From Hippopus hippopus (Eukaryota > Mollusca > Bivalvia > Cardiida > Cardiidae), in the NCBI GenBank assembly GCA_946811185.2, contig OX328096.1, positions 63,572,845 to 63,636,844 on the forward strand: DNA of 64,000 nucleotides. Reading direction: 5' to 3'. The position numbers were made by a program, and so were the translations under genes. The notes under the pieces are model-generated. The model saw only the letters and a program-made list of their open reading frames with translations. It searched no databases and was not told where the DNA came from. Of this stretch, positions 17,296 through 33,088 are shown piece after piece. The first letter of the stretch is position 1; every line of letters starts with the position of its first letter.

Positions 17296-17307
17296 AGTAG
17301 TAAAGGG

Positions 17308-17351: not shown

Positions 17352-17359
17352 ACCCTGAG

Positions 17360-17416
17360 TGCCCCATTCTGCTTACCCTGACAGTAAATGGGGACACGGG
17401 TAAGCAGAATGGGGCA
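17360..17416. repeat. Terminal hairpin 2, left
   Basis: The perfect 19-bp arms TGCCCCATTCTGCTTACCC (17360-17378) and GGGTAAGCAGAATGGGGCA (17398-17416) enclose a 19-nt loop. The mirror copy is at 32962-33018. Confidence 0.85.
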
Positions 17417-17815: not shown

Positions 17816-17858
17816 CTGACTGAAAGTCTTTTGACTGAAAATTGACAATTTGAAAAGA

Positions 17859-18347: not shown

Positions 18348-18395
18348 CGTTCAACTGTATAGGAAAAAATCGTCGGCTTTTATAAGCTGGTGGGA

Positions 18396-18504
18396 GGATT
18401 GACCTACTTTGGCTCAGAATTAACGGTGACCAATCAAAATGTGTAATGATATAACGAACGAATCGATTGGACAACGTTAATTCTATGTCAAAGTAGGTCA
18501 ATCC
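18396..18504. promoter_or_regulatory. Palindromic promoter module, left TIR
   Basis: The outer arms GGATTGACCTACTTTG and CAAAGTAGGTCAATCC bracket AGAATTAACG / CGTTAATTCT. Two oppositely facing CCAAT boxes (ACCAATCAAAA and ATTGGACAACG) lie in the centre. The TATA box of the TIR gene is just outside the left arm. The same module recurs at 27269-27399, 28079-28188, 30435-30543 and 31877-31985, with half modules at about 19452-19475 and 20051-20134. Confidence 0.75.
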
Positions 18505-18985
18505 TCTCGTCAGAACTAGGACTGACCTAATTTGACTCAGAATTAAGAGCGCGTTCCCGGGCGAAAGCACCCTCGATGAAGAGGGTTAAACGCTATGTGT
18601 TATTAAGTGTAACTCTTTAGAGGTAGAAATCTAAAAATTTGAAAAGAATAATCTTTCAGAATTAACGTTTTTGACCAATCAGAAGCTTCGTTGGTTTAAT
18701 GTTGACCAATCAGAAGCTTCGTTATATTTCTTTCTTTGTGTGAGTAAAAAACTAGAAGGAGAAGATTCGTGTTATGCACAGGAATTGGACTTGGTCTTTT
18801 TTTGATATGGAATACAGTGTGATTTTAATGCCCACACTGTCTCAGGACAAGAGGGTTGGGAATAGACATTTTCTGTCTGCTTAGAGCAAAAAATTGCAGT
18901 GGGACTGTGGACTTAGGCTTTTTTGAGTGTATCTCTTTGAATGTAACTCTTAGAGTGTAACTCTTTAGAGGAAATTGACAATTTG
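18505..18985. promoter_or_regulatory. Inter-cassette spacer with repeated ATTGGTC and ACACTCTAAG words
   Basis: No ORF is supported. The stretch contains paired GACCAATCAGAAGCTTCG repeats and several AGAGTGTAACTCTTAG units behind the 3' stem-loop of the next gene. Near-identical spacers stand between right-arm cassettes (about 27730-28060, 28630-28990, 30010-30400, 31390-31850), so the spacer belongs to the cassette unit. Confidence 0.6.
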
Positions 18986-19014
18986 AAAAGAAAGATCTTT
19001 TCGTGGTGTTGGGT

Positions 19015-19030
19015 AGCCCTGAAAAGGGCT
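19015..19030 (-). terminator. Histone-type 3' stem-loop (gene 19060-19359)
   Basis: On the minus strand it reads AGCCCT-TTTC-AGGGCT then ACCC, a perfect 6-bp stem with a UUUC loop. The run CACGAAAAGATCTTTC follows. It lies about 30 nt past the stop codon. Confidence 0.85.
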
Positions 19031-19059
19031 GTTTTTCTGTGTTGGAATGTTTTCCAGCT

Positions 19060-19359
19060 TTAATGACAACATCCAAAATTTGCATGGCAGATTGGACATG
19101 CTCCGACTCTTTTCGTGATTGTCATTGCTCCATTATTAAAAGTAATCCGTCTCCCGATTTCCACATAAACCAAGATAATGTCAGGTGTTGTCTCTAGAAC
19201 TAGTTCGACTATTTTCTCACCAAGATCTACGTATGTGCGTGATATTTGTTCTAGTTGTATTCTATTCTCTTCAATCCTGTTCTTTAGTATCAGTACTTGA
19301 TCACCACCAATCAGAAAGACTCGGAGAGCCTCAATAAGTCGATGATTCATTTGCTCCAT
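19060..19359 (-). CDS. Left-arm cassette gene: helical protein ending in a CPIC...GCC motif
   Basis: This 99-residue protein starts at the ATG at 19359, about 75 bp downstream of a GTATAAAAG box. The N-terminal 60 residues are predicted helical and charged (RIEENRIQLEQISRTY). A hydrophobic strand-like TTPDIILVYVEI follows, then the C-terminal cysteine/histidine cluster GACPICHANFGCCH, which could bind zinc. Its 5' leader is closely similar to that of the unrelated-looking gene at 30639 in the other arm, and its 3' region is the inner edge of the TIR. The function is unknown; the shared CPxC terminus links it to the TIR gene. Confidence 0.65.
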   Translation of the reverse strand: MEQMNHRLIEALRVFLIGGDQVLILKNRIEENRIQLEQISRTYVDLGEKIVELVLETTPDIILVYVEIGRRITFNNGAMTITKRVGACPICHANFGCCH

Positions 19360-19714
19360 TTTTTCGTTAACACTTATCCGTGCTAATCGAGAACTGAGTG
19401 TCGAATGATTTATTATTTGGAAAAATTCGACGACTTTTATACGTTTGCAGTGGGATTGACCTACTTTGACTTAGAATTAAGAGCGCGATCCCGAGCGAAA
19501 GCACCCTGAGTAAAGTTCTGAGAAAAAGAAGCTTAATGCATACATATGTGGAAATTCTCTTTAGAACAGATCTATTTGAATGAAGTAGAAAAGCATTCAA
19601 TCGACCTAGACAAAAGTGAAATTTAGAAGGTTTTTTGAGTGTAACTCTTAGAGTGTAATTCTTAGAGAAAATTGACAAATTTGAGGAAAGATAGATCTTT
19701 TCTTGGTGTTGGCT

Positions 19715-19730
19715 AGCCCTGAAAAGGGCT
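19715..19730 (-). terminator. Histone-type 3' stem-loop (gene 19751-19891)
   Basis: On the minus strand it reads AGCCCT-TTTC-AGGGCT followed by AGCC and CAAGAAAAGATC about 10 nt on. The stem is perfect. It starts about 20 nt after the stop codon. Confidence 0.85.
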
Positions 19731-19750
19731 GTTTGTACAGGCTCACTTTT

Positions 19751-19891
19751 TTATCCTCTTCTCTTTATTCTCCTATTTTCCATTGCATTTATTACTTGGA
19801 TTAGATGTTCAACTTCACGCCTTATACGTCTAAGGCGTTCTCTTTCTTCTATCCAGCTCAGCAATGTAAGTAAAATTGTTAGTCCAAACAT
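19751..19891 (-). CDS. Left-arm cassette gene: 46-residue membrane-anchor-like basic peptide
   Basis: A longer frame is open up to 20131, but its first part is the promoter module read through. A TATA box (GACTATAAAAGAC, about 19950-19962) lies inside it, so I choose the ATG at 19889-19891. The peptide opens with a hydrophobic segment (MFGLTILLTLLSWI) and continues as a strongly charged helix ending NRRIKRRG. A type of small single-pass protein is plausible. No homologue is recognised. The cassette context and the stem-loop directly after the stop support a real gene. Confidence 0.5.
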   Translation of the reverse strand: MFGLTILLTLLSWIEERERLRRIRREVEHLIQVINAMENRRIKRRG

Positions 19892-20050
19892 TGTGCTGAT
19901 TTGGTTTAACTCTACAGCAGTTGAGTTCCGAATGAATGTGTTTTGCGATTGTCTTTTATAGTCTACAGAGCTATAAAAATAGTGACTACAAAGTATTTTA
20001 ACTATGATCACTGAGAATAGTGTTTTGCATAGAGGAAAATGCAGTTGGGC

Positions 20051-20134
20051 TAACGTTGACCAATCAAAATGTGTAATGATATAACGAACGATTCGATTGG
20101 ACAACGTTAATTCTATGTCAAAGTAGGTCAATCC
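20051..20134. promoter_or_regulatory. Half of the palindromic promoter module
   Basis: It contains TAACGTTGACCAATCAAAA, ATTGGACAACGTTAATTC and the arm CAAAGTAGGTCAATCC. The opposite arm is missing. A CGTATAAAAACG box follows at about 20143-20154 and serves the rightward gene. Confidence 0.7.
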
Positions 20135-20183
20135 CCCTGCAAACGTATAAAAACGAACTTTTTTATTATCGGGTTATTTCACA

Positions 20184-20486
20184 ATGAAAGGCAGCAGCTT
20201 TTTCTGTGGGGTGTTTGGAAAGCCAAAGGCTGAGGAAAAGAAAAAGAAAGAGATGGAGGAGCAGATAGAGATGGAGAAGAGAAGAGAAGAAGAAGAAAGA
20301 AAGAGGTTGAAGTTTAAGGCACTGTGTGCTTTTTTTGAGAGGCGGGGGTACGAGTTTTACACTCGTACGCCAAAGGTGAAGATGGGGAATATTTACCCCG
20401 ATCTAAAGGACTTCATGCCACCCACTGAGCATCGTGGGTGGCAAAAGAAGCTACAGAAACTGTATCCTTCACTGGTATGGAATTAA
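20184..20486 (+). CDS. Left-arm cassette gene: charged coiled-coil protein ending SLVWN
   Basis: This 100-residue protein starts at the first ATG, 37 bp after a TATAAAAA box. After MKGSSFFCGVFGKPK comes a run of about 35 Glu/Lys/Arg residues (coiled coil or single helix), then LCAFFERRGYEFY and a C-terminal domain with DLKDFMPP and GWQKKLQKLYPSLVWN. A shortened paralogue lies in inverted orientation at 27012-27218 and keeps the leader, the charged helix and the final SLVWN. The pair marks the inner inverted repeats that enclose the polymerase core. The function is unknown. Confidence 0.7.
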   Translation: MKGSSFFCGVFGKPKAEEKKKKEMEEQIEMEKRREEEERKRLKFKALCAFFERRGYEFYTRTPKVKMGNIYPDLKDFMPPTEHRGWQKKLQKLYPSLVWN

Positions 20487-20515
20487 TTTATCCAGCCAGT
20501 GAATGGAGAAAAAAC

Positions 20516-20531
20516 AGCCCTTTTCAGGGCT
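20516..20531 (+). terminator. Histone-type 3' stem-loop with canonical CAAGAAAGA element
   Basis: AAAAAC precedes AGCCCT-TTTC-AGGGCT, then ACCA, and CAAGAAAGA follows at 20541-20549. The layout equals metazoan histone mRNA 3' signals. The stem differs from the usual GGCCCT/AGGGCC only in its first pair, changed G-C to A-U on both sides. This is the clearest of the 11 copies. Confidence 0.9.
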
Positions 20532-20648
20532 ACCATTCCCCAAGAAAGAGCTTTTCTTTCGAATTGTCAATTTTCTCTCAAAAGGCTTACAGTCAAAGAC
20601 TTACAGCCAGAAGAAAAAAAGTCAAGCCCAGAATTATTTCATATGTTT

Positions 20649-20654
20649 TTTATT
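20649..20654 (-). terminator. Polyadenylation signal of the zinc-knuckle gene
   Basis: On the minus strand it reads GTTTGAATAAAAAAC, about 195 nt past the stop codon at 20849. The mirror-image copy at 26846-26851 serves the plus-strand core genes. Confidence 0.65.
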
Positions 20655-20848
20655 CAAACATTTTGTACAATGAAACAAGACATGAACTGTGAAAAAAACA
20701 ATGGAATGAAAAAACAATATCTGTTAAAAACATTGAAATGAAAACATTTAAACAAGACAGCCTTTTTTGTTAAAACATTTTTTTAAAAAACTTAAAACAA
20801 TATTTTGCAACAGTTTTTTCAACAACCACTTTTTGTTGAAACTTTTTT

Positions 20849-21700
20849 TCACTGTGTTTTTCTTTTTTTCTTTGGAATGTCAGATTCACATTCACTCTTC
20901 CGTTTTCTTCCCCTTTCATTGTTTTTTAATACCATATCTGGACAGATTTTATCCCCATGTTTTTTTGATTTGTAAAAGAAATACTTCTTTTTTTTCTCGC
21001 TTTCTCTTTTTTCGTTGTTTTGCTTTTTCTCCTGTTTTGGTGAAAGAGTCTCCTCTGAAGACAGTTCGTTGTTTTTTAGTTCCAAAGTTGGTTGTTTTCT
21101 TAGATTATCGTTTGTAGATATTTTTTTCTCTACCTGTTCTGTTATTTTACAGATCTCTGTATCACTGATAGTCGTGTTGTCGATCTGCATATTTTCGATC
21201 TGATTTTCAGCCGATGATGTTGTAGCCTGTAGTGAGCTTGTTTTCCATTTACTTTCGTTGCAGAATGATTTCAGAACACCAACGAATTTCATGTTCTGAA
21301 ATTCACCACAATATCCCATTGTTGGTGAAATTTTGATATCGTGACTGCGTGGGTTCACATAGACAAAAACGTATGTTTCTGCCTGCTTTTCTTTTTCTGG
21401 ACAATTTCTAGCCCAGTGTCCTGGTTTGTTGCATGTAAAACAAATATCTTTTCTCTTTCCATCCGATCTATATCGTTTTTTGATCGTTGCTTGATTCAAA
21501 ACTCTGTATCTGGTAATACGGTAAACATCTTTTTCTGTTACATGTTGATGGGATAAAAATGATCCCACGTAGTGCCCGATATGTTGAACTTGATACTTTA
21601 ACGGAACATTGCTGATCTCGTAATCGTGGGTGTATGGGTTAACATACAGATACATCATCTTTCCTTTCAGTGATGTATTTTGTAGATTAAACTCGCTCAT
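20849..21700 (-). CDS. Zinc-knuckle (CCHC) protein of the element core
   Basis: The 283-residue frame starts at ATG 21700, divergent from the core operon. An intact CCHC knuckle, CFTCNKPGHWARNC, lies at about residues 87-100. It is flanked by two related segments, YLYVNPYTHDYEIS and FVYVNPRSHDIKIS, so the N-terminal half is an internal duplication. A second knuckle-like sequence near the C-terminus, YFFYKSKKHGDKIC, has both cysteines replaced by tyrosine. The last 100 residues are Lys/Glu-rich and end with the nuclear-localisation-like PKKKRKTQ. The family suggests single-stranded nucleic-acid binding. It ends at AATAAA, unlike the arm genes. Confidence 0.75.
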   Translation of the reverse strand: MSEFNLQNTSLKGKMMYLYVNPYTHDYEISNVPLKYQVQHIGHYVGSFLSHQHVTEKDVYRITRYRVLNQATIKKRYRSDGKRKDICFTCNKPGHWARNCPEKEKQAETYVFVYVNPRSHDIKISPTMGYCGEFQNMKFVGVLKSFCNESKWKTSSLQATTSSAENQIENMQIDNTTISDTEICKITEQVEKKISTNDNLRKQPTLELKNNELSSEETLSPKQEKKQNNEKRESEKKKKYFFYKSKKHGDKICPDMVLKNNERGRKRKSECESDIPKKKRKTQ

Positions 21701-21853
21701 TTTTTGTCAACTGTACTGTCTGAAGTCGATCAGAAGAATGATATAGATTTCGTAGCTATCGTCTCTATTTATATACTATCGAGCTGAAAGGCTCTATAAA
21801 AATGCCGAGTTTTCTGACTTACCGTGTCATTGTCTTACAATCAGACATAAACG
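21701..21853. promoter_or_regulatory. Divergent promoter of the core genes
   Basis: The 153-bp gap between oppositely oriented ATGs has CTCTATAAAAATG (about 21800-21812) facing right and a GTATATAAAT-type box (about 21764-21774) facing left. It lacks the palindromic CCAAT module of the arm genes. Confidence 0.65.
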
Positions 21854-22219
21854 ATGGGTAAAAGAAAAAGAATAGTACCCTATTCAGACAGCGAAAGTGA
21901 CGATGAGTCATTTTCACCACCAAAAAAAAAAAAAAAAATAAAAATGAAAAAAGAAGAAAGTGACAGTGAAGACGATTTCTCTTCACCCAAGAAAAAACCT
22001 GTAAAAATGATCGTAGAAAGTGACAGTGAAGATAATATCTCCTCGAAAAAAATGAACGTGAAAAGTGACAGTAAAGATGAAACACCCAAGAAAAAAACGA
22101 TCATGAAAAGTGAAAGTGAAGATGATACACCAAAGAAAAAAATGATTGAGGATCGAAAAGAAGAAAGTAACAACACTACTTTAGACGTGAAAAGTCTGTA
22201 TGACTTAACGGAGAAGTGA
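21854..22219 (+). CDS. Acidic-serine / lysine-cluster repeat protein, first gene of the core operon
   Basis: This 121-residue protein starts at ATG 21854, about 45 bp after a TATA box. It alternates acidic serine stretches (SDSESDD, ESDSED repeated, SESEDD) with lysine clusters (SPPKKKKK, PKKKP, PKKKT, PKKKM). The SDSE/SEDD words fit casein kinase 2 sites and the PKKK clusters fit nuclear localisation signals. The composition resembles nucleolar or chaperone-like disordered proteins. It ends 42 nt before the polymerase ATG, so the two probably share a transcript. The role is unknown; it could be a partner or priming protein for the polymerase, which is inference from position only. Confidence 0.65.
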   Translation: MGKRKRIVPYSDSESDDESFSPPKKKKKIKMKKEESDSEDDFSSPKKKPVKMIVESDSEDNISSKKMNVKSDSKDETPKKKTIMKSESEDDTPKKKMIEDRKEESNNTTLDVKSLYDLTEK

Positions 22220-22261
22220 AAAAAGAAATCGAGGAAATTTAGAACAGAATCACATCTGTTG

Positions 22262-25200
22262 ATGGCGTCTTTTAAGAAATTTGAAGAATTACCACCCCAT
22301 CAACTGATCGGATTATTTGACGAAGTTACCCATCAAATCATTCAAAAGTTAAATGCTGAACCGACGGATATGATTAGAATTAGTATCAACCACCCTTCAT
22401 TGGATATGGGGATTCATATTCCCTTTCTACCTACAGAACAGCTGAAAGGTGAAACTATGTTAAATGAAATTGAAAAAGTTTTACAATCGAATACAGATTT
22501 CGTCTTGAACGATGGATTCATGACATTTGACATTACACATACAATACCTCCAAGTGGTAGCGGGAGAAAAAGATCATCAGAATGGGATTCAAAGGTTTTT
22601 GCCCAGAAGAAAGAATCAATTATTCAAATTAACAATCATGATCACCTGTGTTTTGCAAGAGCAGTTGTGGTGGGCAATTGCTACACTGAACGTGAAAACA
22701 CCAAAGCATGGAATAGAAGATGGGTATGCATCAGAAAATCAGACAGAATACTTCAAAAGACTGAAGCTGAGAAACTGTTGATTGAAGCTGGAGTTCCGCC
22801 AACCCGGTCTGTAGGAATTGACGAATACAAAAAAATCCAATCTTTTTTGTATGAAAAGGACTATGTCATTAAAGTTCATCAACTGCATTCAAAAGTGGAA
22901 AAAGTATTTGAACACCCAAAAGTAAAAGACGATAGTAAAATCATACATTTGTACTTTCATCAAAACCACTATGATTACATCAAATCCATTGCAGGTTTTC
23001 TTAGTTGTGCATGTTATTGTGAGTTCTGTGACGTGGGATACTCGGCACGAGAAAGTCTTGCATGTTCAAATATCTGTAAAGGTTGTTATCGCAAAGGAAA
23101 ATGTCCATCAGAATCAAAAGAATATGTTTGCAGTGGGTGTCATAGACGATTTTTCAGTGCTGCATGTTTGGCAAATCATAGAAATGTTCAAGGTAAAGAA
23201 AAAAAATCCATTTGTGAATTAGTAAAACTCTGTTTAAAATGTGGTCAACAATATCATCTCAGAAAGAAAAATCATATCTGCCATGGAAAGAAAAAGTGTC
23301 ATATCTGCAAGAAAATTGTTGACTTTTCTCATCGATGTTATATTCAACCTTACCAAAGTAAGACAAACACCGATGACAAGAGAGTTCTTCTGTAGTCAAA
23401 AAACCATTGCTAATTTTCTTTGATTTTGAATGCAAACAAGACACAGGAGTACATATCCCGAATTACTGTATTGCACACAGAGCATGTGATGAATGTATCG
23501 ATAAACCACTTGATTTTCATTGTTCCACATGCAGTGAATTTGAAGAAGGAAGAGAAGTTATTTTTCAAGGTGAGGAAACTTTGAGTCAGTTTTGCAACTG
23601 GCTCTTTTCAGAACATCATAAAGGAGTCATGGCTATTGGGCATAATTTCAAAGGTTATGATGGACAGTTTATTCTTGACTATGTTACCAAAGTTGGGCTA
23701 AAACTTCCAAATTTGATCATGAATGGCAATAACATTATGAAGTTAGAACTGAATGGAGTGCGTTTGATCGATTCTTTTAATTTCATGAACTTCGGTTTGG
23801 CAAAATTTCCAGCTACATTTGGTCTTCAAGAAATGAAAAAAGGTTACTTTCCTCACTGGGCAAATACAGATGAATTCTGGGGTTACATTGGTCCCTATTG
23901 GACATGTCTTATTACAAACCCGATTCAATGTCTGAAGAGGCCAGGTCAAATTTCATAGTCTGGTATAATGATAAAGTTCAAAGGGATGAGGAATTCAATT
24001 CTCAAAAAGAGATGGAAATGTACTGTAGGTTAGATGTTGATATCCTAAGACGAGGATGTGGTGAATTCAGAAAAGTGTTTATTGAACAGGGTGGCATTTG
24101 CCCATTTCTAGAGGCGATTACCATTGTCGATGCATGTAACAAGGTTTGGCGAAGCAAATATTTGCCTGAAAATCAAATAGCTATCATTTCAAGTAAAGAT
24201 GCATCCAGACGTCGCTTTTCCATGAAAGCAATACGCTGGATCCAGAGCGTAGCTATGGAAAAAGGAATCAATATTCGCCACGCAAACAATGGTGGTGAAG
24301 TTCAAATCGGGAGATACAGTGTAGACGGATTTCACCGTCAATCAAACACTGTCTATGAATTCCTTGGGGATTTGTTTCATGGCTGTCCCGTATGTTATAC
24401 AGATCGAAAACAGATCAATCCCATCAATGGAAGATCGATGTCTGAATTGTCCGAACGTACTTTTGAACGTTTAGGAGCTGTCAAAAAAATGGGATATAAC
24501 GTAGAGTTCATATGGGAACATGAATTCGATGCTAAGATGAGGAAGGATAAAGAGTACAAAAAACTCATTGAAAACCTGTATCCAAATCGGGATCCCATCG
24601 ATCCAAGAGAGGGGTTGTCTGGAGAAAGATGTAATGCAATAAAAATTGCCTATGATGTCAAGGAAAAAAGTAAAAAGGAAATCAAATACATTGATATTTG
24701 TTCTCTGTACCCTTATGTTTGCAAACACAAATCTTATCCTGTAGGTCAACCAAAAATCTTGACTACTGAGAATATTGACGTGAAGAATATTCGTCAGTAT
24801 GAAGGAATAATTAAATGCAAAGTTTTAACCCCAGATGATTTGTTTCACCCCGTTCTCCCAGTTCACTGTAACAAAAAAATGATGTTTCCACTCTGTATGA
24901 AATGTGCAGAAGAAAATTCGAACATTTGTAGACATAACAAAGAAGAGAGGGCATTGGTAGGAACTTGGGTTACTTTTGAACTGTTCAAAGCTCTTGACTG
25001 TGGTTATCGGTTATTGCAAGTGTATGAAATTTGGCATTTCGATTCTGTGTCGGATCAGTTCTTTAAAAGCTATGTGGATAATTTCTTGAAAATTAAGCAA
25101 GAAGCTAGCGGATATCCCAGTTGGTGTCAATCAGATTCGGAAAAAGAACAGTTTATTCGTGAATATGAGGAGGCAGAAGGTATTCGTCTTGATCCAAGTT

Positions 25201-25964
25201 GTATTTAAAAAAATCCTGGGAGAAGGGCCTTTGGTAAGATTATGTTGAATTGTCTTTGGGGAAAATTAGCCCAGCGTGAAAAAATGACCCAGACGGAATA
25301 CATCAACGATCCGTCTAAATATTTTGAATTGGTCACCAGTCCAAATTTCATTGTGAAGCACGTAGAAATCTTTGAAGATGACTGTCCATTCATCTTGGTC
25401 AACTACGAAACAAAGTTGGAACATATTGATACTCACGCTACAGCCAATGTTATTGTAGGAGCCTACGTAACAGCTTATGCAAGGCTGGAATTGTACAGTG
25501 TTCTTGAAAAGTTAAAGGATAGAGTTCTGTATTTCGATACAGATAGTTGTATGTATATTCATGATCCTGAATTATGGAACCCACCCATTATTAACAGCAG
25601 ACTAGGAAAATGGACTGATGAAGAGCCTGATTGTAAAATCACTCATTTCAGAGGACTAGGACCAAAGAATTATGCTTACAAAATGAAAACAAAAGATGGA
25701 AAAGTGAAAAGCAAATGTAAAGTGAAGGGAATTACTTTGGATTACAATACAAATCAAGTGGTGAATTTCGATACATATTCAAAATGTGCATTGAATCGCA
25801 CTACAGAAATCAAAATTGAATATGATTGTAGAATCATAAGACATAGAGATAGAACGGTCACCAGTGAACCGCAAACAAAAACGTTTCGTTCTGTATACAC
25901 CAAGAGAGTTATTGTTAATGATACTGACACTGTACCCTATGGCTATAAAACGTTGAGAAGATAA
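22262..25964 (+). pseudogene. polB: Family-B DNA polymerase, protein-primed type (broken)
   Basis: The protein of about 1,230 residues is spread over three frames. Its N-terminal half has a Cys-rich zinc-binding region (CYCEFCDVGYSAR, CKGCYRKGKC, CSGCHRRFF, near 23010-23180). The 3'-5' exonuclease follows: Exo I FFDFECKQD (23416), Exo II GHNFKGYDGQF (23638) and Exo III YCRLDVDIL (24021). Polymerase motifs are A DICSLYP (24692), B KIMLNCLWGK (25236) and C YFDTDS (25531-25547). Frameshifts lie near 23390 and 23897, and an in-frame TAA at 25206-25208 falls just before motif B. The ATG at 22262 is preferred over an upstream TTG. Motif order and length fit the Polinton/bidnavirus type. The breaks may be genuine decay or, near A-runs, base-call errors. 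Confidence 0.9.
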
Positions 25965-25968
25965 TTCC

Positions 25969-26684
25969 ATGTTACATTGTTTTGATCTGAACGGTCCGAG
26001 TAAGACGCAAAAATATCGCTTTAAAAAAATTATGCTGCCTTTACCAATAGAACTACGTGAAAAGATTTATGGAGAATTCGTTCAACAGCATACGCTCGAT
26101 GAACAAACGCAACTTAACATTAAATTCTACTGTGTGAAACTTTGGATAGATAAATTGCACAAAGGTTTTGCAAAAGGAGAATCGTCCAGTAAGTTGTATG
26201 CTATACACAGCTTTATTGCTATGATGGTAGACGATTCGGATTTAGATCTCATTCTCATGCTTATTTAGCATCTTGTTGGTGGAAAGACAGTGCTATCGGT
26301 AAACTAATGCAATCCACAAGTCGATGGTGCTTTATTATCATTGGAAGAACAGAAGAAAGCTTTCTGAACGTTCTGAAAATGAAATCAGTTTTATTTAACT
26401 TTTACTTACGCTACAAAAGAGGATTTATTCAAAACGACGAGGAAATAGTGGATACCTTGGAAGGCTATATTTTATTTGATAGAGATGTTACAGAAGAAAG
26501 TGTATATTCATCTCTTTCAACGACAGACGTTACAAAACATGTTTTTCCATTTAGAGGAACACGTGAATTCAGAGAGATTGACAGTGAATATCAATTGTAT
26601 TTGGGTAATGACCAATTGCATACAGTTATTACGGAACATGAAGACAAATGGAAAACTCGGGGCATTTGTGAATTTGCATTGTGA
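25969..26684 (+). pseudogene. Unknown core ORF directly after the polymerase (one frameshift)
   Basis: The ATG at 25969 is 4 nt after the polymerase stop, so translation is probably coupled or reinitiating. Frame 1 is open to 26268 and frame 3 continues from about 26240 to 26684, with sensible sequence (ASCWWKDSAIGKL before the internal Met), so a 1-2 nt indel near 26240 splits a protein of about 237 residues. Visible features are LPLPIELREKIYGEF near the start, a tryptophan-rich centre and a GRTEESFLNVLKMKS helix. No catalytic motif is recognised. It ends at AATAAA 26846. Confidence 0.6.
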
Positions 26685-26845
26685 ATTCACATTGTAAAAT
26701 GTTATATTGTATGAAATGTTATATTGTACGAAATGTTTTTATGCTAAATTGTTTTTTGCACAGATATTGTTTTTTCATTTTCAATGTTTTTTCATTCCAT
26801 TGTTTTTTTCACAGTTCATGTCTTGTTTCATTGTACAATTGTTTG

Positions 26846-26851
26846 AATAAA
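26846..26851 (+). terminator. Polyadenylation signal of the core operon
   Basis: AATAAA lies 162 nt after the last core stop codon, in the inner inverted repeat, as the mirror of the signal at 20649-20654. Confidence 0.65.
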
Positions 26852-26968
26852 AAACATATGAAATAATTCTGGGCTTGACTTTTTTTCTTCTGACTGTAAG
26901 TCTTTGACTGTAAGTCTTTTGAGAGAAAATTGACAATTCGAAAGAAAAGCTCTTTCTTGGGGAATTGT

Positions 26969-26984
26969 TGCCCTGAAAAGGGCT
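26969..26984 (-). terminator. Histone-type 3' stem-loop (gene 27012-27218)
   Basis: On the minus strand it reads AGCCCT-TTTC-AGGGCA; the first pair is lost. CAAGAAAGA follows at 26951-26959. Confidence 0.85.
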
Positions 26985-27011
26985 GTTTTTTCATTCACTG
27001 GATGGATAAAA

Positions 27012-27218
27012 TTAATTCCATACCAGTGACATAAAGTCGGGCGAAAACTCGCGCCCTTGTCTCTTTAAAAACTCGCAGAGAGTTTTCATCCTCTTTACCT
27101 CTTCTCTTCTTTCTTCTTTTTCTCTTTTCTTCTGATCTAGCTTCTCCTCCATCTCTCTCTTCTTTACTTCTCCCTTTCTCCTTCCAAAACACTTACTAAA
27201 ATTTTTATTGTCTTTCAT
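27012..27218 (-). CDS. Right-arm cassette gene: shortened paralogue of the charged-helix protein
   Basis: This 68-residue protein starts at ATG 27218, 35-40 bp past a CGTATAAAAACG box. The Glu/Lys/Arg helix and LCEFLKRQGREF correspond to residues 1-60 of the protein at 20184. The C-terminal domain is almost absent, but the last residues SLVWN are kept in frame, so an in-frame internal deletion separates the two. Whether the short form still works is unknown. Confidence 0.65.
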   Translation of the reverse strand: MKDNKNFSKCFGRRKGEVKKREMEEKLDQKKREKEERREEVKRMKTLCEFLKRQGREFSPDFMSLVWN

Positions 27219-27268
27219 TGTGAAATAATCCGATAATAAAAAAAGTTCGTTTTTATACGTTGACGGGA

Positions 27269-27399
27269 GGATTGACCTACTTTGACTCAGAATTAACGTT
27301 GACCAATCTCAGAATTAACGTTATCCAATCAAAATGTGTAATGGTATAACGAACGATTCGATTGGACGACGTTAATTCTATGTCGAAGTAGGTCAATCC
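27269..27399. promoter_or_regulatory. Palindromic promoter module between divergent cassette genes
   Basis: The full palindrome GGATTGACCTACTTTG ... GTAGGTCAATCC holds three CCAAT-type boxes. TATA boxes lie on both sides (CGTATAAAAACG to the left on the minus strand, GCTATAAAA to the right), so here it acts as a two-way promoter. Confidence 0.75.
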
Positions 27400-27455
27400 A
27401 CCCTGCAAGCTATAAAATTCCAATGTTTTATACATCAAATCATAATCGTTCCATC

Positions 27456-27662
27456 ATGGTACAGATTCTTCTCTGTCCGATGTGCGTTAGCAGATGCTAT
27501 ATAGAATGCGGAAAATGCCTTGCTATTCTGGACTACCTTGGCCAGAAGCATAATTGTCCTGATCCTGATGAGGGATTTTATGACGATAATGAAAGCTCGA
27601 CAGTATGATGTGAATACTGTGGATGTGAAATCATCCCAGTAAATCGTTTAGATGAGCAGTAG
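27456..27662 (+). pseudogene. Right-arm cassette gene: zinc-ribbon protein with premature stop
   Basis: The ATG at 27456 (MVQILLCPMC) is chosen because the TATA box at about 27410 is too close to the upstream ATG at 27423. CPMC, CYIECGKC and a downstream CEYC-GC set could form a zinc site. The frame stops at TGA 27606-27608 exactly where the paralogue at 29732 has TGG (tryptophan). The frame then continues in register to TAG at 27660. So this is either a recent nonsense mutation or a readthrough stop. The stem-loop begins 27 nt after the second stop, in line with the other cassettes. Confidence 0.65.
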
Positions 27663-27688
27663 TCTTGATAGATGAATACTCGAAAAAC

Positions 27689-27704
27689 AGCCCTTTTCAG
27701 GGCT
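27689..27704 (+). terminator. Histone-type 3' stem-loop (gene 27456)
   Basis: AGCCCT-TTTC-AGGGCT with A-rich leader (CGAAAAAC) and downstream CACGAGAAGATC. Confidence 0.85.
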
Positions 27705-28078
27705 AACCAACACCACGAGAAGATCTTTCTTTTCAAATTTTGTCAATTTCTCATAAAGAGATACACTCTAAGATTTACACTCTAAGAGTTACACTCCAAA
27801 AAGCCTAAGTTCACAACACTGTATTTTTTTGCTCTAACCAGACAAAAAAAATCTATTCCCAGACCTCTTGACCAGAGACAGTGTGGGCTTTAAAATCACA
27901 CTGTATTCCATACCAAAAAAAGTCAAAAGCGTAAATCCTATCTTCTATCATTTCAGATTTATCAATTGTTTTTGGATAAAAAATGTAATGAACGTTCTGA
28001 TTGGTCAACGTTAAACCAACGAACCTTCTGATTGGTCAAAAAAACGTTAATTCTGAATCAAAACTAGTTCTGACGGGA

Positions 28079-28188
28079 GGATTGAGCTACTTTGGTATAG
28101 AATTAACGTTACCCAGTTGAATCGTACGTTAAATCATTACATATTTTGATTGGTTAACGTTAATTCTAAGTCAAAGTAGGTTAATCCC
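28079..28188. promoter_or_regulatory. Palindromic promoter module (gene 28260)
   Basis: GGATTGAGCTACTTTGG faces CAAAGTAGGTTAATCC, with ATTGGTTAACG in the centre. The TATA box AATATATAAAG lies at about 28197-28207. Confidence 0.7.
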
Positions 28189-28259
28189 TATGCAAGAATA
28201 TATAAAGTCCGGACTCAATTGTAAAAAATTATTATCAAGTAGATAACCAAATCATCAAC

Positions 28260-28553
28260 ATGCCTTCAAGAATAAGAACTCTTGACAAACGTTTCACTTT
28301 AAATGATGCTAAACGACGATTTAGAAAAGCCTTTAATCAGATCGTCTTGCTGGAGCAACGTTTAGACCAGGTGAAGAAACGGTACAAGATGGCAGAACGT
28401 ACAAACAACAGAGCGTTCCGCTATAACCTTCGAATGAAGCTTACAGTCATTGAAGGGACATTTGAAATGTTTTATGAATATGCCTTTTCCAAAGCTGACC
28501 AGATTATCGAACTTCACCGAGAGCTGTTCAACGATTCGTCTGATTCTGAATAA
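28260..28553 (+). CDS. Right-arm cassette gene: helical protein, paralogue A
   Basis: This 97-residue protein starts at the ATG about 55 bp after AATATATAAAG. It is almost wholly helical and basic in its first third. It shares with the protein at 29088 the core KRRFRKAFNQIVLLEQRLD..., YKMAERTNN, KLTVIEGTFEM and ELHRELF. The pair arose by tandem duplication of a whole cassette. It ends in an acidic tail (DSSDSE). No known fold is assigned; small four-helix or coiled-coil DNA-binding proteins are possible. Confidence 0.7.
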   Translation: MPSRIRTLDKRFTLNDAKRRFRKAFNQIVLLEQRLDQVKKRYKMAERTNNRAFRYNLRMKLTVIEGTFEMFYEYAFSKADQIIELHRELFNDSSDSE

Positions 28554-28579
28554 TTATTCAACTTGATTTTCTTCAAAAC

Positions 28580-28595
28580 AGCCCTTTTCAGGGCT
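28580..28595 (+). terminator. Histone-type 3' stem-loop (gene 28260)
   Basis: AGCCCT-TTTC-AGGGCT followed by ACCC and CACGAAAAGATCTTTC, with CAAAAC leader. It lies 26 nt past the stop. Confidence 0.88.
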
Positions 28596-29087
28596 ACCCA
28601 ACACCACGAAAAGATCTTTCTTTTCGAATTGTCAATTTTCTCTAAGAATTACACTCTAAGAATTACACTCTAAGAGTTACACTCAAAAAAGCCTAAGTCC
28701 ACAGCCCCTACATTTTTTTGCTCTAATCAGACAAAAAAGTCCAACTCCTGTGCATTACACGAATCTTCTCCTTCTAGTTTTTTACTCACACTAAGAAAGA
28801 AATATAACGAAGCTTCTGATTGGTCAACATTAAACCAACGAAGCTTCTGATTGGTCAAAAACGTTAATTCTGAAAGATTATTCTTTTCAAATTTTTAGCA
28901 TTTCTACCTCTAAAGAGTTACACTTAATAACACATAGCGTTTAACCCTCTTCATCGAGGGTGCTTTCGCCCGGAAACGCGCTCTTAATTCTGAGTCAAAG
29001 TAGGTCAATCCCTATGCAAGAATATATAAAGTCAGGGTCCCCAATTGTAAAAATTTATTATCAACTAGATAACCAAATCGATTCATC

Positions 29088-29375
29088 ATGTTTACGAGAA
29101 AACTGACTTCGAGTGAACGCAAGATACAACGCAAAATGAATGTTGCCAAACGAGAATTTATGGAAGCCTACAAACAGATCGACTTGCTAGAACATCGTCA
29201 AGATGTGGTAGAGAAAGCATACAAGATGTCAGAACGTACAAATAACAAATTGTACTGCTGTTACTTTGGGATAAAATTATGGGTTATTGAAGGAACACTC
29301 GATATGTACAGAGACTATACTCGCTGTAAGCGTGAGCAGATGGATGAACTTCACCGGGAGTTTTTCGACGAATAG
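29088..29375 (+). CDS. Right-arm cassette gene: helical protein, paralogue B
   Basis: This 95-residue relative of the protein at 28260 aligns over its whole length: FMEAYKQIDLLEHRQD, YKMSERTNN, KLWVIEGTLDM and ELHREFFDE. Divergence is large at the ends but the spacing of the core is conserved, which argues for selection on both proteins. The TATA box AATATATAAAGTCAG lies at about 29020. The spacer upstream holds only half of the palindromic promoter (CAAAGTAGGTCAATCC) plus ATTGGTC repeats. Confidence 0.7.
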   Translation: MFTRKLTSSERKIQRKMNVAKREFMEAYKQIDLLEHRQDVVEKAYKMSERTNNKLYCCYFGIKLWVIEGTLDMYRDYTRCKREQMDELHREFFDE

Positions 29376-29416
29376 GTCCAACTCTGTATATTTTTTGAGT
29401 TGATTTCTTTAAAAAC

Positions 29417-29432
29417 AGCCCTTTTCAGGGCT
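29417..29432 (+). terminator. Histone-type 3' stem-loop (gene 29088)
   Basis: AGCCCT-TTTC-AGGGCT then ACCA and CAAGAAAGG at 29442-29450. Perfect stem. Confidence 0.9.
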
Positions 29433-29731
29433 ACCAATCACCAAGAAAGGGTGATCTTTCTTCAAATTTGTCAATTTCTCAATCAGTTACAGTCAAAAAA
29501 GAGGTCCTTTGCAACAACTCTCTAGCTAAATCTTTCCCCAAAGAACAAAATCATTCCTCAGACTAAGTCCAACAGTAATTTTGAGTAAGAAAAACCCATC
29601 TCTCCAATAAAACTAAAGATATAAGGAGCTTTTTGATTGGATAACGTTAATTCTGAGTCAAAGTAGGTCAATCCATCCAGCAAAACTATAAAAACTCAAT
29701 GTTTTATACATCAAATCATATTCGTTCCACC

Positions 29732-29938
29732 ATGGTTCAGATACTTATTTGCCCTTTGTGTGCTCAAGCATGCGACATAGAGTGTGGGAAATGTACATTT
29801 CCCCTACAGTATCTTGGACAAAAGCACAACTGGCCAAATCCTGATGAGGGGTTTTATGATGAAGACGATGACCCAGGGGTTTGGTGCGAATATTGCTGGC
29901 GAGAGATCAGACCTGTAGTTTATACAGTCGATGAATAG
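29732..29938 (+). CDS. Right-arm cassette gene: intact zinc-ribbon-like protein
   Basis: The ATG at 29732 follows ACTATAAAAACTC by about 45 bp; the in-frame ATG at 29699 is too near that box. The 68-residue protein has CPLC, CDIECGKC and WCEYC clusters and the acidic linker DEGFYDEDDDPG. It is the intact counterpart of the interrupted gene at 27456. The cysteine pairs suggest zinc binding and protein or nucleic-acid contact. Confidence 0.7.
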   Translation: MVQILICPLCAQACDIECGKCTFPLQYLGQKHNWPNPDEGFYDEDDDPGVWCEYCWREIRPVVYTVDE

Positions 29939-29964
29939 CCTTGCCAGACAACAAAACTCAAAAC

Positions 29965-29980
29965 AGCCCTTTTCAGGGCT
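29965..29980 (+). terminator. Histone-type 3' stem-loop (gene 29732)
   Basis: AAAAC-AGCCCT-TTTC-AGGGCT-ACCA, then CAAGAAAGA at 29990-29998: all canonical parts are present. Confidence 0.9.
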
Positions 29981-30434
29981 ACCATTCAGCAAGAAAGAGT
30001 GATCTTTCTTCAAATTTGTCAATTTTCTCTAAGAATTACACTCTAAGAATTACACTCAAAGAGATACACTCAAAAAAAGCCTAAGACCAATACAGGTCTA
30101 GTTATCTCTTTCAAAATCACAGTGTATTCCATATCAAAAAAAGACTAAGTCCAATTCCTGTGCATAACACGAATCTTTTCCTTCTAGTTTTTTACTCACA
30201 CAAAGAAAGAAATATAACGAAGCTTCTGATTGGTCAACATTAAAGCAACGAAGCTTCTGATTGGTCAAAAACGTTAATTCTGAAAGATTATTCTTTTCAA
30301 ATTTTTAGCATTTCTACCTCTATGAGTTACACTTAATAACATACAGCGTTTAACCCTCTTCATCGAGGGTGCTTTCGTCCGGGAACGCGCTCTTAATTCT
30401 GAGTCAAATTAGGTCAATCCTAGTTCTGACGAGA

Positions 30435-30543
30435 GGATTGACCTACTTTGACATAGAATTAACGTTGTCCAATCGATTCGTTCGTTATATCATTACACAT
30501 TTTGATTGGTCAACGTTAATTCTGAGCCAAAGTAGGTCAATCC
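30435..30543. promoter_or_regulatory. Palindromic promoter module (gene 30639)
   Basis: The full palindrome is nearly identical to those at 31877-31985 and 18396-18504. CTTATAAAAGCC follows at about 30554. Confidence 0.75.
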
Positions 30544-30638
30544 TCCCACCAGCTTATAAAAGCCGACGATATTTTTCTAAATAATAAATTATTCGACTCT
30601 CAGCTCTCGAATAGTACGGATAAACGCTAACGGAAAAA

Positions 30639-31318
30639 ATGGATTTCAACTTAAATGGATTCAACTTGGACGGCTTTGACATAGACGAATTCCTACCAAA
30701 AGAAAACACTGGAGATATTCTATCGACAGCAATGAATTCAACACTCGTCAACCCATCGACAGCGATGAATTCAACACTCGTCAACCCAACGACTGCGATA
30801 AATACAACACTCATCAACCCAAAGACCATATTGGACGACAGTTTTGAAGAAGTAAGACAGCTGAATTCAAAACAAGATTCTGTATTGACTCAGATTTTAG
30901 AAGAACTGAAGACTTTCAACAAACATTTGGAGGAGATAAAGACTTTAAACACAAACACTGAACAACTGAGCAGAAACATTGAGACATTATGTCAACAGAG
31001 TAAGCGTGTTTCACCTGTTCCTGTGCAGATTCCGGTGAAAATCCCGATGGAGTTTGACTTTGATAAAAACCAGTCTTCATAAACTAGTAGAGTCAATCGT
31101 AACGGTTGTAAAGAAAGAAAAACAACAGCCAAAGGAAAAACAGCGAAGAGCAACAAAAAGAAAATCAGAGGAAGGCGATGGGGAACTTCACAAAAAACAA
31201 GGAGTTCTCAACAACTGGGCAATCTCGACAATGACGGGTCAGGGCAAATACGGAAAAAAAGATTGATGACTTCGATGATTTCAAGATCCCGAAAAAACGA
31301 AAGAAAAGCTATCAGTAA
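30639..31318 (+). pseudogene. Right-arm cassette gene: repeat plus coiled-coil protein with basic tail (two frameshifts)
   Basis: The ATG at 30639 follows a leader closely similar to that of the left-arm gene at 19359. The protein opens with asparagine/aspartate repeats (NLNGFNLDGFDIDEF), then three 11-residue repeats of the type TAMNSTLVNPS, then a coiled coil (VLTQILEELKTFNKHLEEIK). The first frame stops at 31082. The following frame codes for a lysine-rich tail (KEKQQPKEKQRRATKRK) up to about 31260. After an A7 run the frame with IPKKRKKSYQ reaches a stop at 31316-31318. Two 1-nt shifts would make one protein of about 225 residues. The basic tail fits nuclear or DNA-binding use. The function is unknown. 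Confidence 0.6.
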
Positions 31319-31349
31319 AGGCGAAAAAAACATTCCAGCACAGAAAAAC

Positions 31350-31365
31350 AGCCCTTTTCAGGGCT
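31350..31365 (+). terminator. Histone-type 3' stem-loop (gene 30639)
   Basis: AGCCCT-TTTC-AGGGCT, ACCC and CACGAAAAGATC. It sits inside the right TIR although its ORF lies outside it. Confidence 0.88.
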
Positions 31366-31876
31366 ACCCAACACCACGAAAAGATCTTTCTTTTCAAATT
31401 GTCAATTTCCTCTAAAGAGTTACACTCTAAGAGTTACACTCTAAGAGATACACTCAAAAAAGCCTAAGTCCACAGTCCCACTGCAATTTTTTGCTCTAAG
31501 CAAAAAAAAAAAGTCTATTCCCAACCCCCTTGTCCTGAGACAGTGTGGGCATTAAAATCACACTGTATTCCATATCAAAAAAAGACTAAGTCCAATTCCT
31601 GTGCATAACACGAATCTTCTCCTTCTAGTTTTTTACTCACACAAAGAAAGAAATATAGCGAAGCTTCTGATTGGTCAACATTAAACCAACGAAGCTTCTG
31701 ATTGGTCAAAAACGTTAATTCTGAAAGATTATTCTTTTCAAATTTTTAGCATTTCTACCTCTAAAGAGTTACACTTAATAACACATAGCGTATAACCCTC
31801 TTCATCGAGGGTGCTTTCGCCCGGGAACGCGCTCTTAATTCTGAGTCAAATTAGGTCAATCCTAGTTCTGACGAGA

Positions 31877-31985
31877 GGATTGACCTACTTTGACATAGAA
31901 TTAACGTTGTCCAATCGATTCGTTCGTTATATCATTACACATTTTGATTGGTCACCGTTAATTCTGAGCCAAAGTAGGTCAATCC
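31877..31985. promoter_or_regulatory. Palindromic promoter module, right TIR
   Basis: Mirror of 18396-18504. GCTTATAAAAGCC follows at about 31995-32007. Confidence 0.75.
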
Positions 31986-32033
31986 TCCCACCAGCTTATA
32001 AAAGCCGACGATTTTTTCCTATACAGTTGAACG

Positions 32034-32463
32034 ATGGAAGAACTCAGAAAATCGGTTCAAAACTTAATGAGAGCGGTAACCACCCTCTCATTAAAATTAG
32101 AGAGAGTAAACAGCCAAGTGGAGAAGATGATGGCTGAGGAAGAAAGACCACCACTACGCCCACTAGTAAACTACAAGGTGGGGCTCGTCATCACACCGAA
32201 CAGAGTGGAAAAAAGACGAAAATAGATGCCCACTCTTTGAAGAAAGATTGCTCTTTCTTGATGGTGGGGTAGGCCTGAAGCCGACACCACTACCGCCAGT
32301 CAACGAGAAGAAGGTCGTCATTCCAGTGACTGAATGTTGGGATGACGATAATGAGCCACCATTCTCTCTGCACTTTGATCTCAACGAGACAGAGTTGAGA
32401 AGGCTGAAGAGGCGGACAACAAGTAGCTGTCCAGCCTGCAGAAAAGTTGGAGGTTGTGCCTAA
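32034..32463 (+). pseudogene. TIR gene, right copy (frameshifted in the middle)
   Basis: The start and first 55 codons match the left copy. An extra A in CACCGAACAGAG (about 32199) shifts the frame and stops it at 32225. The matching frame resumes from about 32200 to 32463 and ends with SSCPACRKVGGCA just before the stem-loop. This end probably shows the original C-terminus, because it resembles the CPIC...GCC end of the gene at 19060. Each TIR copy thus carries a different break. Confidence 0.7.
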
Positions 32464-32484
32464 AAACACAGCCTCCCGAAAAAC

Positions 32485-32500
32485 AGCCCTTTTCAAGGCT
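32485..32500 (+). terminator. Histone-type 3' stem-loop (TIR gene, right)
   Basis: AGCCCT-TTTC-AAGGCT then ACCA and CACGAAAGAG. It has the same C-A mismatch as the left copy, so the mismatch predates TIR divergence or is spread by conversion. Confidence 0.75.
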
Positions 32501-32961
32501 ACCATTCCACACGAAAGAGTGATCTTTTCAAATTGTCAATTTTCAGTCAAAAGACTTCCAGTCAGTACAACCCCCACTCAGGGTAAGCAGAATAGGGACT
32601 CAGGGTAAGTCAGATAGGGACTGCCCAATCTCTGCAACACGTGCAGTCTAAGATCAACCGGGAATGGTCTTTGCCCTGTAACCATGACGTCACGTGACTT
32701 TCCTAAGCCATGCCCATCTTTCCCCTCTCAGGGTAAGCAGAGTAGGTACCGGAAGGTCACGTGATAATCTTTCCCCTCTCAGGGTAAGGAGAGTAGGTAC
32801 CGGAAGTCCACGTCAACCGGAAGTGACGTCACGTGTCGTCATGGTAACGTCACGTGACTTTCCTAAGCCACGCCTATTTTCCCCCTCTCAGGATAAAATC
32901 AGGGGAGATAACTCCATTTACTAAAATTCACTTCCGGTTTTACAAAAATCGACTTCCGGTT

Positions 32962-33018
32962 TGCCCCATTCTGCTTACCCGTGTCCCCATTTACTGTCAG
33001 GGTAAGCAGAATGGGGCA
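32962..33018. repeat. Terminal hairpin 2, right
   Basis: Arms TGCCCCATTCTGCTTACCC (32962-32980) and GGGTAAGCAGAATGGGGCA (33000-33018) are identical to the left copy. Confidence 0.85.
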
Positions 33019-33026
33019 CTCAGGGT

Positions 33027-33070
33027 AAGTCGGATAGGGCACAGTCGCTCTATCTTGCCCTATCCGACTT
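33027..33070. repeat. Terminal hairpin 1, right
   Basis: Arms AAGTCGGATAGGGCA (33027-33041) and TGCCCTATCCGACTT (33056-33070) are identical to those of the left hairpin. Confidence 0.85.
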
Positions 33071-33082
33071 CTCTTTACTACT

Positions 33083-33088
33083 TGTGTT
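33083..33088. repeat. Target-site duplication, right copy
   Basis: TGTGTT, identical to 17290-17295. Confidence 0.8.

Follow-up and report, generated by a model that had tools for sequence, protein, structure and literature searches.

According to the current view, 3' ends of the histone type are almost confined to histone genes. The hairpin of such an end has a 6-bp stem and a 4-nt loop whose first and third nucleotides are U. Among mobile elements, a 6-bp target-site duplication is a Maverick trait, and the combination of a type-B DNA polymerase with long terminal inverted repeats (TIRs) is characteristic of the Maverick/Polinton/adintovirus group. No description of a mobile element or virus with histone-type ends on small non-histone genes was found in the literature searched. 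The window, namely the whole 64,000-nt stretch of Hippopus hippopus DNA analyzed here, contains a 15.8-kb mobile element with 1.76-kb TIRs and a type-B DNA polymerase gene. The sequence evidence given below indicates that small arm genes of this Maverick-like element carry the 3'-end signal of the host histone genes. Cleavage of the arm-gene RNAs by host SLBP/U7-type machinery is predicted, which would yield tail-less mRNAs tied to S phase. The probability of this reading is estimated at roughly 80%.

The left TIR occupies positions 17,296–19,053 (plus strand, 1758 nt) and is matched by the right arm at 31,327–33,082 (minus strand, 1756 nt); in their alignment, 1725 of 1760 columns are identical. 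A putative target-site duplication, TGTGTT, flanks the element at 17,290–17,295 and 33,083–33,088. Among three element copies with the same repeat tip, the 6-bp duplications are exact in two (TGTGTT and AATAAG) and agree at 5 of 6 positions in the third (CTCAAA/CCCAAA). The center contains the DNA polymerase B gene (PF03175; 22,262–25,964, plus strand), which is split into several ORFs (22,262–23,395, 23,629–23,958, 23,904–25,208 and 25,242–25,964), and a gene for a CCHC zinc-knuckle protein of 283 aa (20,849–21,700, minus strand). The arms contain small genes, including one for a 97-aa protein predicted to fold as a two-helix hairpin (28,260–28,553, plus strand; mean pLDDT 90.2) and its paralogue of 95 aa with 47% identity (29,088–29,375, plus strand). 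In this copy, several of the arm ORFs are either interrupted or distant from their own hairpin.

Eleven hairpins of the form AGCCCT-TTTC-AGGGCT were found at the coordinates and on the strands given in a preliminary description of this DNA, whose overall range of 19,015–32,500 omitted its own leftmost site at 17,881. A search of the window with the 16-mer, allowing up to 3 mismatches, returned 12 matches, 11 of them with 0 or 1 mismatch, while the twelfth, with 3 mismatches at position 3595, is located outside the element; shuffled sequence gave a mean of 0.27 and a maximum of 2. All 11 hairpins are in sense orientation relative to the preceding ORF, as had been stated. The distance of 20–35 nt from the stop codon that had been given for them was found at six sites (20–29 nt), namely 19,015–19,030 (minus strand, 29 nt past the stop of ORF 19,060–19,359; 31.3 bits with the Rfam model RF00032), 19,715–19,730 (minus, 20 nt, ORF 19,751–19,891; 25.8 bits), 20,516–20,531 (plus, 29 nt, ORF 20,184–20,486; 24.9 bits), 26,969–26,984 (minus, 27 nt, ORF 27,012–27,218; 19.2 bits), 28,580–28,595 (plus, 26 nt, ORF 28,260–28,553; 31.3 bits) and 29,965–29,980 (plus, 26 nt, ORF 29,699–29,938; 26.6 bits). 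The distance is longer at 29,417–29,432 (plus, 41 nt, ORF 29,088–29,375; 27.3 bits), 27,689–27,704 (plus, 80 nt, ORF 27,423–27,608; 25.9 bits), 31,350–31,365 (plus, 267 nt, ORF 30,639–31,082; 31.3 bits) and 32,485–32,500 (plus, 259 nt, ORF 32,034–32,225; 20.0 bits), and at 17,881–17,896 (minus; 20.0 bits) the ORF 17,859–18,347 runs through the hairpin. Since the sites at 17,881 and 19,015 are TIR copies of those at 32,485 and 31,350, respectively, the 11 sites represent nine separate units.

The loop is TTTC at all 11 sites, and the 6-bp stem is perfect at eight; a C.A mismatch is located inside the stem at 17,881 and 32,485, and the first pair is lost at 26,969. The purine element starts 10 nt past the hairpin at every site, as described earlier, and ACC follows the hairpin directly at all sites except 19,715, 26,969 and 27,689. 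The statement that every small arm gene has a hairpin goes too far, since the interiors of two further element copies contain a 220-aa arm ORF with no hairpin within 300 nt.

For comparison, seven histone-type genes were read in the host genome (H1, H2A, H2B, H3, H4, H2A.X-like and PL/H1-like), and their hairpins were found 28–39 nt past the stop. The purine block (GARA) is located at +12/+13 in six of these seven genes and at +13 in all 11 element sites, and TGTCA at +31 to +35 in all seven genes and at +34 to +38 in all 11 sites; the downstream part of site 29,965 (29,990–30,022, plus strand) is an example of this layout. The two motifs occur together in 0.4% of background windows. In addition, of 98 distinct sites from 45 further element loci, 89 have the purine part and 84 have the TGTCA part. 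Thus, the host histone 3' ends are compatible with the element motifs, with the same order of parts and nearly the same spacing, and differ in the first stem pair. This pair is A-U at all of the 100 additional perfect-stem sites that were scanned and G-C in the host, in agreement with the earlier view of A-U as a change from G-C. As a speculation, the constant A-U pair may tune SLBP affinity. A search with RF00032 (gathering score 34 bits) had been proposed in the preliminary description; all 11 sites match the family at 19.2–31.3 bits, overlapping the host range of 30.0–37.9 bits, and none reaches the gathering score. As five of the seven host genes also score under 34 bits, this shortfall is no argument against membership.

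A genome-wide search for the hairpin core with up to 2 mismatches revealed 7033 sites, and the reversed control gave 0. Among single changes at stem pair 3, the pair is kept as U.G at 68 sites and broken as C.A at 15 (p = 3e-9 against 1:1 if the sites are independent; the copies were spread by transposition, so the site counts are not independent events). Double changes on both stem sides that keep the pairing were found at pairs 3 and 4. The bias toward the paired form points to selection on the RNA. It also bears on the idea that the hairpins are DNA-level sites, such as cruciforms acting in replication, recombination or packaging, and lie behind genes incidentally. Inverted repeats are indeed abundant in the element, but at the DNA level the two mirror-image changes at pair 3 are one and the same mutation in an identical palindromic context, for which 1:1 would be expected instead of the ratio counted in sense orientation. 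The consistent sense position behind ORFs, the asymmetric flanks (AAAAC before the hairpin, ACC and purines after it) and the layout common to the seven host genes also disagree with DNA-level sites, which makes this explanation extremely unlikely.

It could also be assumed that a single capture brought a histone 3' end into the element, where it then spread by duplication without any function. All sites are similar, and duplication is obvious for the TIR pairs and the internal repeats. Gapped identity among the nine units is 64% over the 120 nt downstream; part of the 3' flank is therefore alike between the units too, and some of the conservation is accounted for by shared descent. However, ungapped identity is 97% in the hairpin against 27% upstream (-120 to -7; 42% with gaps over 120 nt), and it is 31% at +81 to +120. 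The pair-3 bias, the double changes that preserve pairing and the presence of the same kind of end in a separate contig, L087, likewise speak against a functionless remnant of a single capture, which we consider unlikely.

The 3' ends of the central genes are organized differently. In both central gene units, AATAAA is found within 200 nt of the stop: the rightward genes are followed by it at 26,846–26,851 (plus strand), 162 nt past the stop at 26,684, and the zinc-knuckle gene by an AATAAA at 20,649 and no hairpin. Within 250 nt downstream of the hairpins, the canonical signal occurs at only one of the 11 window sites, and, in the two other element copies whose interiors were read, at one of the two hairpins present. 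CCAAT-like motifs are present in the 200 nt preceding 10 of the 11 arm ATGs and absent from those preceding the three central ATGs. The hairpin could serve only mRNA stability or translation through SLBP binding, with the 3' ends formed by cleavage and polyadenylation farther downstream. For this, it can be noted that six of the 11 sites have ATTAAA or AATAAA in the 400 nt downstream and that the histone genes of C. elegans retain a downstream poly(A) signal, although most of their mRNAs end past the hairpin (PMC1924863). The scarcity of the canonical signal within 250 nt, and the conserved 3' parts common to host histone genes, whose function would be unclear in the case of a hairpin acting purely as an SLBP site in a longer mRNA, make such an arrangement very unlikely.

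Formation of the ends by histone-type processing is thus the preferred reading, and as far as the signal itself is concerned, the takeover of this pathway proposed in the preliminary description is supported. The host SLBP would bind the element hairpins, and the arm-gene RNAs would be cleaved just past the hairpin by SLBP together with U7-type machinery, giving mRNAs without a poly(A) tail that would be restricted to S phase. The element proteins could then be made when DNA precursors and replication factors are on hand for its own DNA polymerase, and the two central gene units would use their AATAAA signals instead. An SLBP gene was identified in the host by two PF15247 matches about 1 kb apart (E = 1.4e-13 and 5.7e-5). 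The host U7 snRNA was not found with RF00066, a search that was silent in its controls too, and a pattern based on the U7 motif gave 10 matches against 14 in the reversed control.

It is fairly probable that a whole lineage of Maverick-like elements follows such a two-channel program, with ordinary poly(A) signals on the central replication genes and, on the accessory arm genes, 3' ends of the host histone type whose A-U first pair is specific to the lineage; the accessory proteins would come from tail-less mRNAs only in S phase. An element family with such ends on many non-histone genes would demonstrate how a DNA element can couple gene expression to host replication with no oncogene-like inducer of S phase. 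With its thousands of sites, invariant A-U first pair and conserved TGTCA block, such a family would also be a natural experiment to determine the important parts of the signal. RF00032 combined with polymerase B can be used as a search rule for further elements.

A search of 82 polymerase-relative loci with RF00032 gave a convincing match only in L087, a contig of the Maverick type (CALIZB010000033.1) that was filed in a bacterial bin and encodes integrase and polymerase domains. Its match scores 35.8 bits, with the hairpin 28 nt past the stop of a zinc-finger gene; the test for GARA and TGTCA was negative, and TGTCA is absent. Like the window element, L087 contains ORFs of a PF03175 polymerase and, close to one end of the contig, a small gene followed by an RF00032 end; unlike it, L087 has an rve integrase, a TBP-like gene and a single hairpin with a G-C first pair, whose 16 nt are identical to the H2B hairpin of the window host. 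Under the lineage-wide reading, L087 suggests that the trick is older than the window host or arose independently of it.

The element shares the PF03175-family DNA polymerase, long TIRs and 6-bp target duplications with Maverick/Polinton elements and adintoviruses, and its polymerase is 43% identical to PolB-C of the Rhodactis coral adintovirus over the piece searched. In contrast to them, neither a retroviral-type integrase nor a capsid domain was detected by Pfam in the 18 element ORFs scanned (smaller and overlapping ORFs lay outside the scan, and a diverged capsid protein could escape it), and the arms are full of small genes with histone-type ends. A viral genome with a predicted RF00032 match is also known, namely SARS-CoV-2 (PMC7786107); there, it is one match of 14.7 bits within a coding region of an RNA virus and not at a gene end, whereas the element has 19–31 bits at 11 gene ends together with the downstream parts. 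Finally, the ends resemble those of replication-dependent histone genes (RF00032; host histone array) in the stop-to-hairpin distance, 6-bp stem, U-N-U-type loop, purine block at about +13, TGTCA at about +33 and overlapping covariance scores. They differ in that the element genes are not histones, the first pair is A-U instead of G-C, and the signal is carried by a mobile element with about 7000 core sites in the genome.

A single Maverick-like element was found at 17296–33082. It is bounded by terminal inverted repeats (TIRs) of 1758 and 1756 nt, which were identical in 1725 of 1760 alignment columns, and is flanked directly by TGTGTT on the left and on the right, a putative target duplication. 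The tip sequence of the TIR (30 bases, up to three mismatches) occurs six times in the host genome of 1.07 Gb, which corresponds to three copies with the putative target duplications TGTGTT/TGTGTT, AATAAG/AATAAG and CTCAAA/CCCAAA. The centre of the element encodes a CCHC zinc-knuckle protein and a DNA polymerase B (PF03175), the latter detected in two pieces (E 4.7e-23 and 2e-9); one further piece matched a PHROGs polymerase family (E 1.2e-24). The polymerase is split into several ORFs in the window copy and uninterrupted in the two other copies examined. The closest named animal proteins to the polymerase piece searched were those of bivalves (Mercenaria, 49%; Saccostrea, 44%), and the PolB-C of the Rhodactis coral adintovirus was 43% identical to this piece. 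A Pfam scan of 18 element ORFs found neither an integrase nor a capsid domain.

The arms of the element are filled with small ORFs. TATA-like motifs were found within 200 nt upstream of 11 of 11 arm ATGs versus two of three central ATGs, and CCAAT-like motifs upstream of 10 of 11 versus none of three at the same distance. The outer repeats (17296–17830 and 32550–33082) each contain 5 ETS-, 7 E-box- and 4 CRE-like motifs and are richer in them than the interior and the flanks. The arm protein family (28260–28553 and 29088–29375) has 12 relatives at E <= 1e-3, every one on a contig shorter than 1.9 kb. The product of 28260–28553 was considered as a histone and this was rejected, a two-helix hairpin being predicted instead; this protein gave no match in the PDB at E <= 0.001 and no relative in the viral contigs searched. 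Outside the element, a Ras-like GTPase ORF was found at 14097–15149 on the plus strand (PF00071, E 1.8e-12); close to the C-terminus it contains a tandem duplication.

The sequence AGCCCTTTTCAGGGCT, with no or one mismatch, was found at eleven sites; the chance expectation, even with up to three mismatches, is 0.27. As the preliminary description had claimed, all eleven hairpins lie behind ORFs in sense orientation, and a purine block begins 10 nt after the hairpin in every case. The proposed distance of 20–35 nt from the stop codon stood only in part: it is 20–41 nt at seven of the 11 sites, whereas in this copy the ORF listed for each of the remaining four either ends farther upstream or continues through the hairpin. 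The stem is perfect in 8 of the 11. Because of the TIR duplication, the sites merge into nine separate units, in which ungapped identity was 97% for the hairpin, 90% for the preceding six bases and 73% for the purine block, falling to 27% farther upstream and 31% at +81 to +120. With gaps, it was 42% over 120 nt upstream and 64% over 120 nt downstream. All 11 sites contain GARA (+13) and TGTCA (+34 to +38), a combination present in 0.4% of random windows from the flank of the element. At all 11 sites (17881–32500) the predicted fold also pairs the purine block with the pyrimidine block that follows it, giving a second hairpin. This is given as an observation and no claim is made from it, since just five sites, two of them mutual TIR copies, stand out from shuffled sequences (at most 12 of 200 equally stable).

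To compare these ends with those of the host, histone hairpins were located via GGYYCTTTTMAGRRCCAC, which gave 184 matches genome-wide and none in the reversed control. An array at C15:40.57–41.10 Mb holds 97 of the first 100 matches listed. Thirty loci were scanned for hairpins, and upstream genes were read in seven of them, namely H2A, H1, H3, H2B, H4, an H2A.X-like gene (ending in SQEF) and a PL/H1-like gene; one of the thirty, L144, was left without a gene assignment. For H1 and H2B, the hairpins were detected beside matches of the search pattern and not as matches themselves. In all seven genes the hairpin is followed by AC or AT and then by TGTCA at +31 to +35, and six have the GARA purine block at +12/+13, with GAAT at this position in H2A. 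The expected compatibility of the host histone hairpins with the element motifs was supported by a common layout of hairpin, GARA and TGTCA. The TGTCA block (often AATTGTCAA), at about +31 to +38, is conserved at the 11 element sites and at the host histone loci L143–L157. The first of these loci (L143, C5:51913857) is the PL/H1-like (protamine-like) gene, which lies outside the array and has its own histone-type hairpin; taken with the relatives of the polymerase, this gene suggests that the host is a bivalve.

The window sites matched the Rfam model RF00032 at 19.2–31.3 bits, without reaching the cut-off of 34, and sites in ten more element loci, a selection of those retrieved, scored 20.7–32.4 bits. 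The host genes scored 37.9 (H2A.X-like), 35.2 (H4), 33.5 (H2A), 32.4 (H2B), 31.5 (H3), 31.0 (PL/H1-like) and 30.0 bits (H1), so this cut-off would exclude five of the seven host histone-type genes.

According to passages in PMC9756948 and PMC1924863, the histone hairpin is bound by SLBP, the downstream element pairs with the U7 snRNP and the RNA is cut 3' of the hairpin. A gene with the SLBP RNA-binding domain is present in the host genome. The host U7 was not found: the RF00066 search was silent in controls too, and a U7 motif pattern gave 10 matches versus 14 in the reversed control. Pairing of the TGTCA block with the U7 5' end received no support from the U7 pattern search. Since the layout of the host genes recurs in the element as far as the TGTCA block, the sequence argues strongly that the element's hairpin RNAs share the histone processing of the host. 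Such shared processing would in turn be predicted to couple the arm genes to S phase.

The central genes end differently from the arm genes. AATAAA was found 162 nt after the stop on the polymerase side and 195 nt after that of the zinc-knuckle gene, both within near-identical sequence, and within 250 nt downstream of only one of the 11 hairpins. In the two other copies read, the zinc-knuckle gene is likewise followed by AATAAA; on the polymerase side, AATAAA lies at +387 in one copy, the only one whose last ORF passed the size limit. Two hairpins were present in the stretches read of these copies, one with AATAAA within 250 nt. An inverted repeat (20508–20663 and 26837–26992) occupies both arm–centre borders and carries a hairpin end on one strand and the AATAAA end of a central gene on the other.

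A 22-base core of the hairpin (up to two mismatches) has 7,033 genome sites and none in the reversed control; the first 30 places and their neighbours were inspected. The first 30 loci and the window contain 67 distinct sites at up to three mismatches, namely 52 AGCCCT/AGGGCT, 7 AGTCCT/AGGACT and 8 altered on one side of the stem. A further set (L098–L142, L187 and L188) was limited to distinct sites that combine a perfect stem with TGTCA or GARAG downstream. Its 100 sites comprised 57 AGCCCT/AGGGCT, 28 AGTCCT/AGGACT and 15 AGCTCT/AGAGCT, the last two forms differing from the first in both bases of pair 3 and of pair 4, respectively; many of the 100 share a common context, and the AGTCCT share is inflated because L128–L142 were fetched by that form. 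The A-U first pair was kept in all 100, although G-C was also allowed by the scan. Several of the other element copies (among L107–L142) contain tandem hairpins, AGCTCT..AGAGCT closely followed by AGTCCT..AGGACT. With exact flanks, genome counts at pair 3 were 68 for U.G, 15 for C.A and 15 for U-A. As the stem is palindromic, U.G and C.A arise by the same mutation in the same context on opposite strands, and equal counts would be expected without strand-specific constraint. The single changes, counted at pair 3 only, were biased 68:15 toward U.G, with which the sense RNA stays paired at this position (p 3e-9 assuming independent sites; since the copies share descent, the actual significance is lower).

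Another Maverick-type contig, L087 (CALIZB010000033.1), comes from a bacterial bin and contains PF03175 polymerase ORFs, an rve integrase and a TBP-like protein, whose TATA-binding-protein-like domain lies at 7189–7695 on the minus strand (PF00352, E 1.2e-27). Near its end, GGCCCTTATCAGGGCC ACC was found 28 nt past the stop of an 89-aa C2H2 zinc-finger gene, and this hairpin scored 35.8 bits with RF00032 (E 1.5e-7). Downstream of this hairpin, the test for the GARA and TGTCA parts was negative; an AAAAAAGAGA block is present. The last 434 bases have a GC content of 0.49 versus 0.33 in the rest and contain one ETS-, two E-box- and four X-box-like motifs and no CRE-like motif. Since the ETS-, E-box- and X-box-like kinds are also dense in the outer repeats of the window, we think that these bases probably belong to the element, although they may be host flank. 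Three other bacterial-bin polymerase contigs of 3.6–8.5 kb (L084, L085 and L086) gave no RF00032 match at E <= 1. Polymerase sequences of this animal-type element were filed in bacterial bins (P0008 and L084–L087; e.g., Candidatus Thiodiazotropha taylori), perhaps through host contamination.

A single polymerase piece revealed no relative in viral contigs, and neither did the L087 protein 4113–5399 or the integrases. The polymerase alignment gave 389 relatives, and none of the 78 loci that represent the best 80 of these contained a convincing hairpin. The strict pattern scan is blind to the L087 hairpin, whose loop it does not allow; this hairpin was detected by RF00032. Pattern matches in viral contigs were rejected: five loci of the first set had no Rfam match at E <= 0.01, and 10 of 10 in the second lacked a self-complementary stem.

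Among the matches listed in the open-licence literature, there was no mobile element or virus whose own non-histone genes use histone 3' ends. The closest precedent among these matches is a 14.7-bit RF00032 prediction within a coding region of SARS-CoV-2 (PMC7786107). Histone-like proteins are mentioned for adomaviruses (PMC11071296), which is distinct from histone-type 3' ends. In the bivalve Lucina pectinata, histone mRNAs are described as carrying the hairpin, with purine-rich elements present in some of the genes (PMC6210712).
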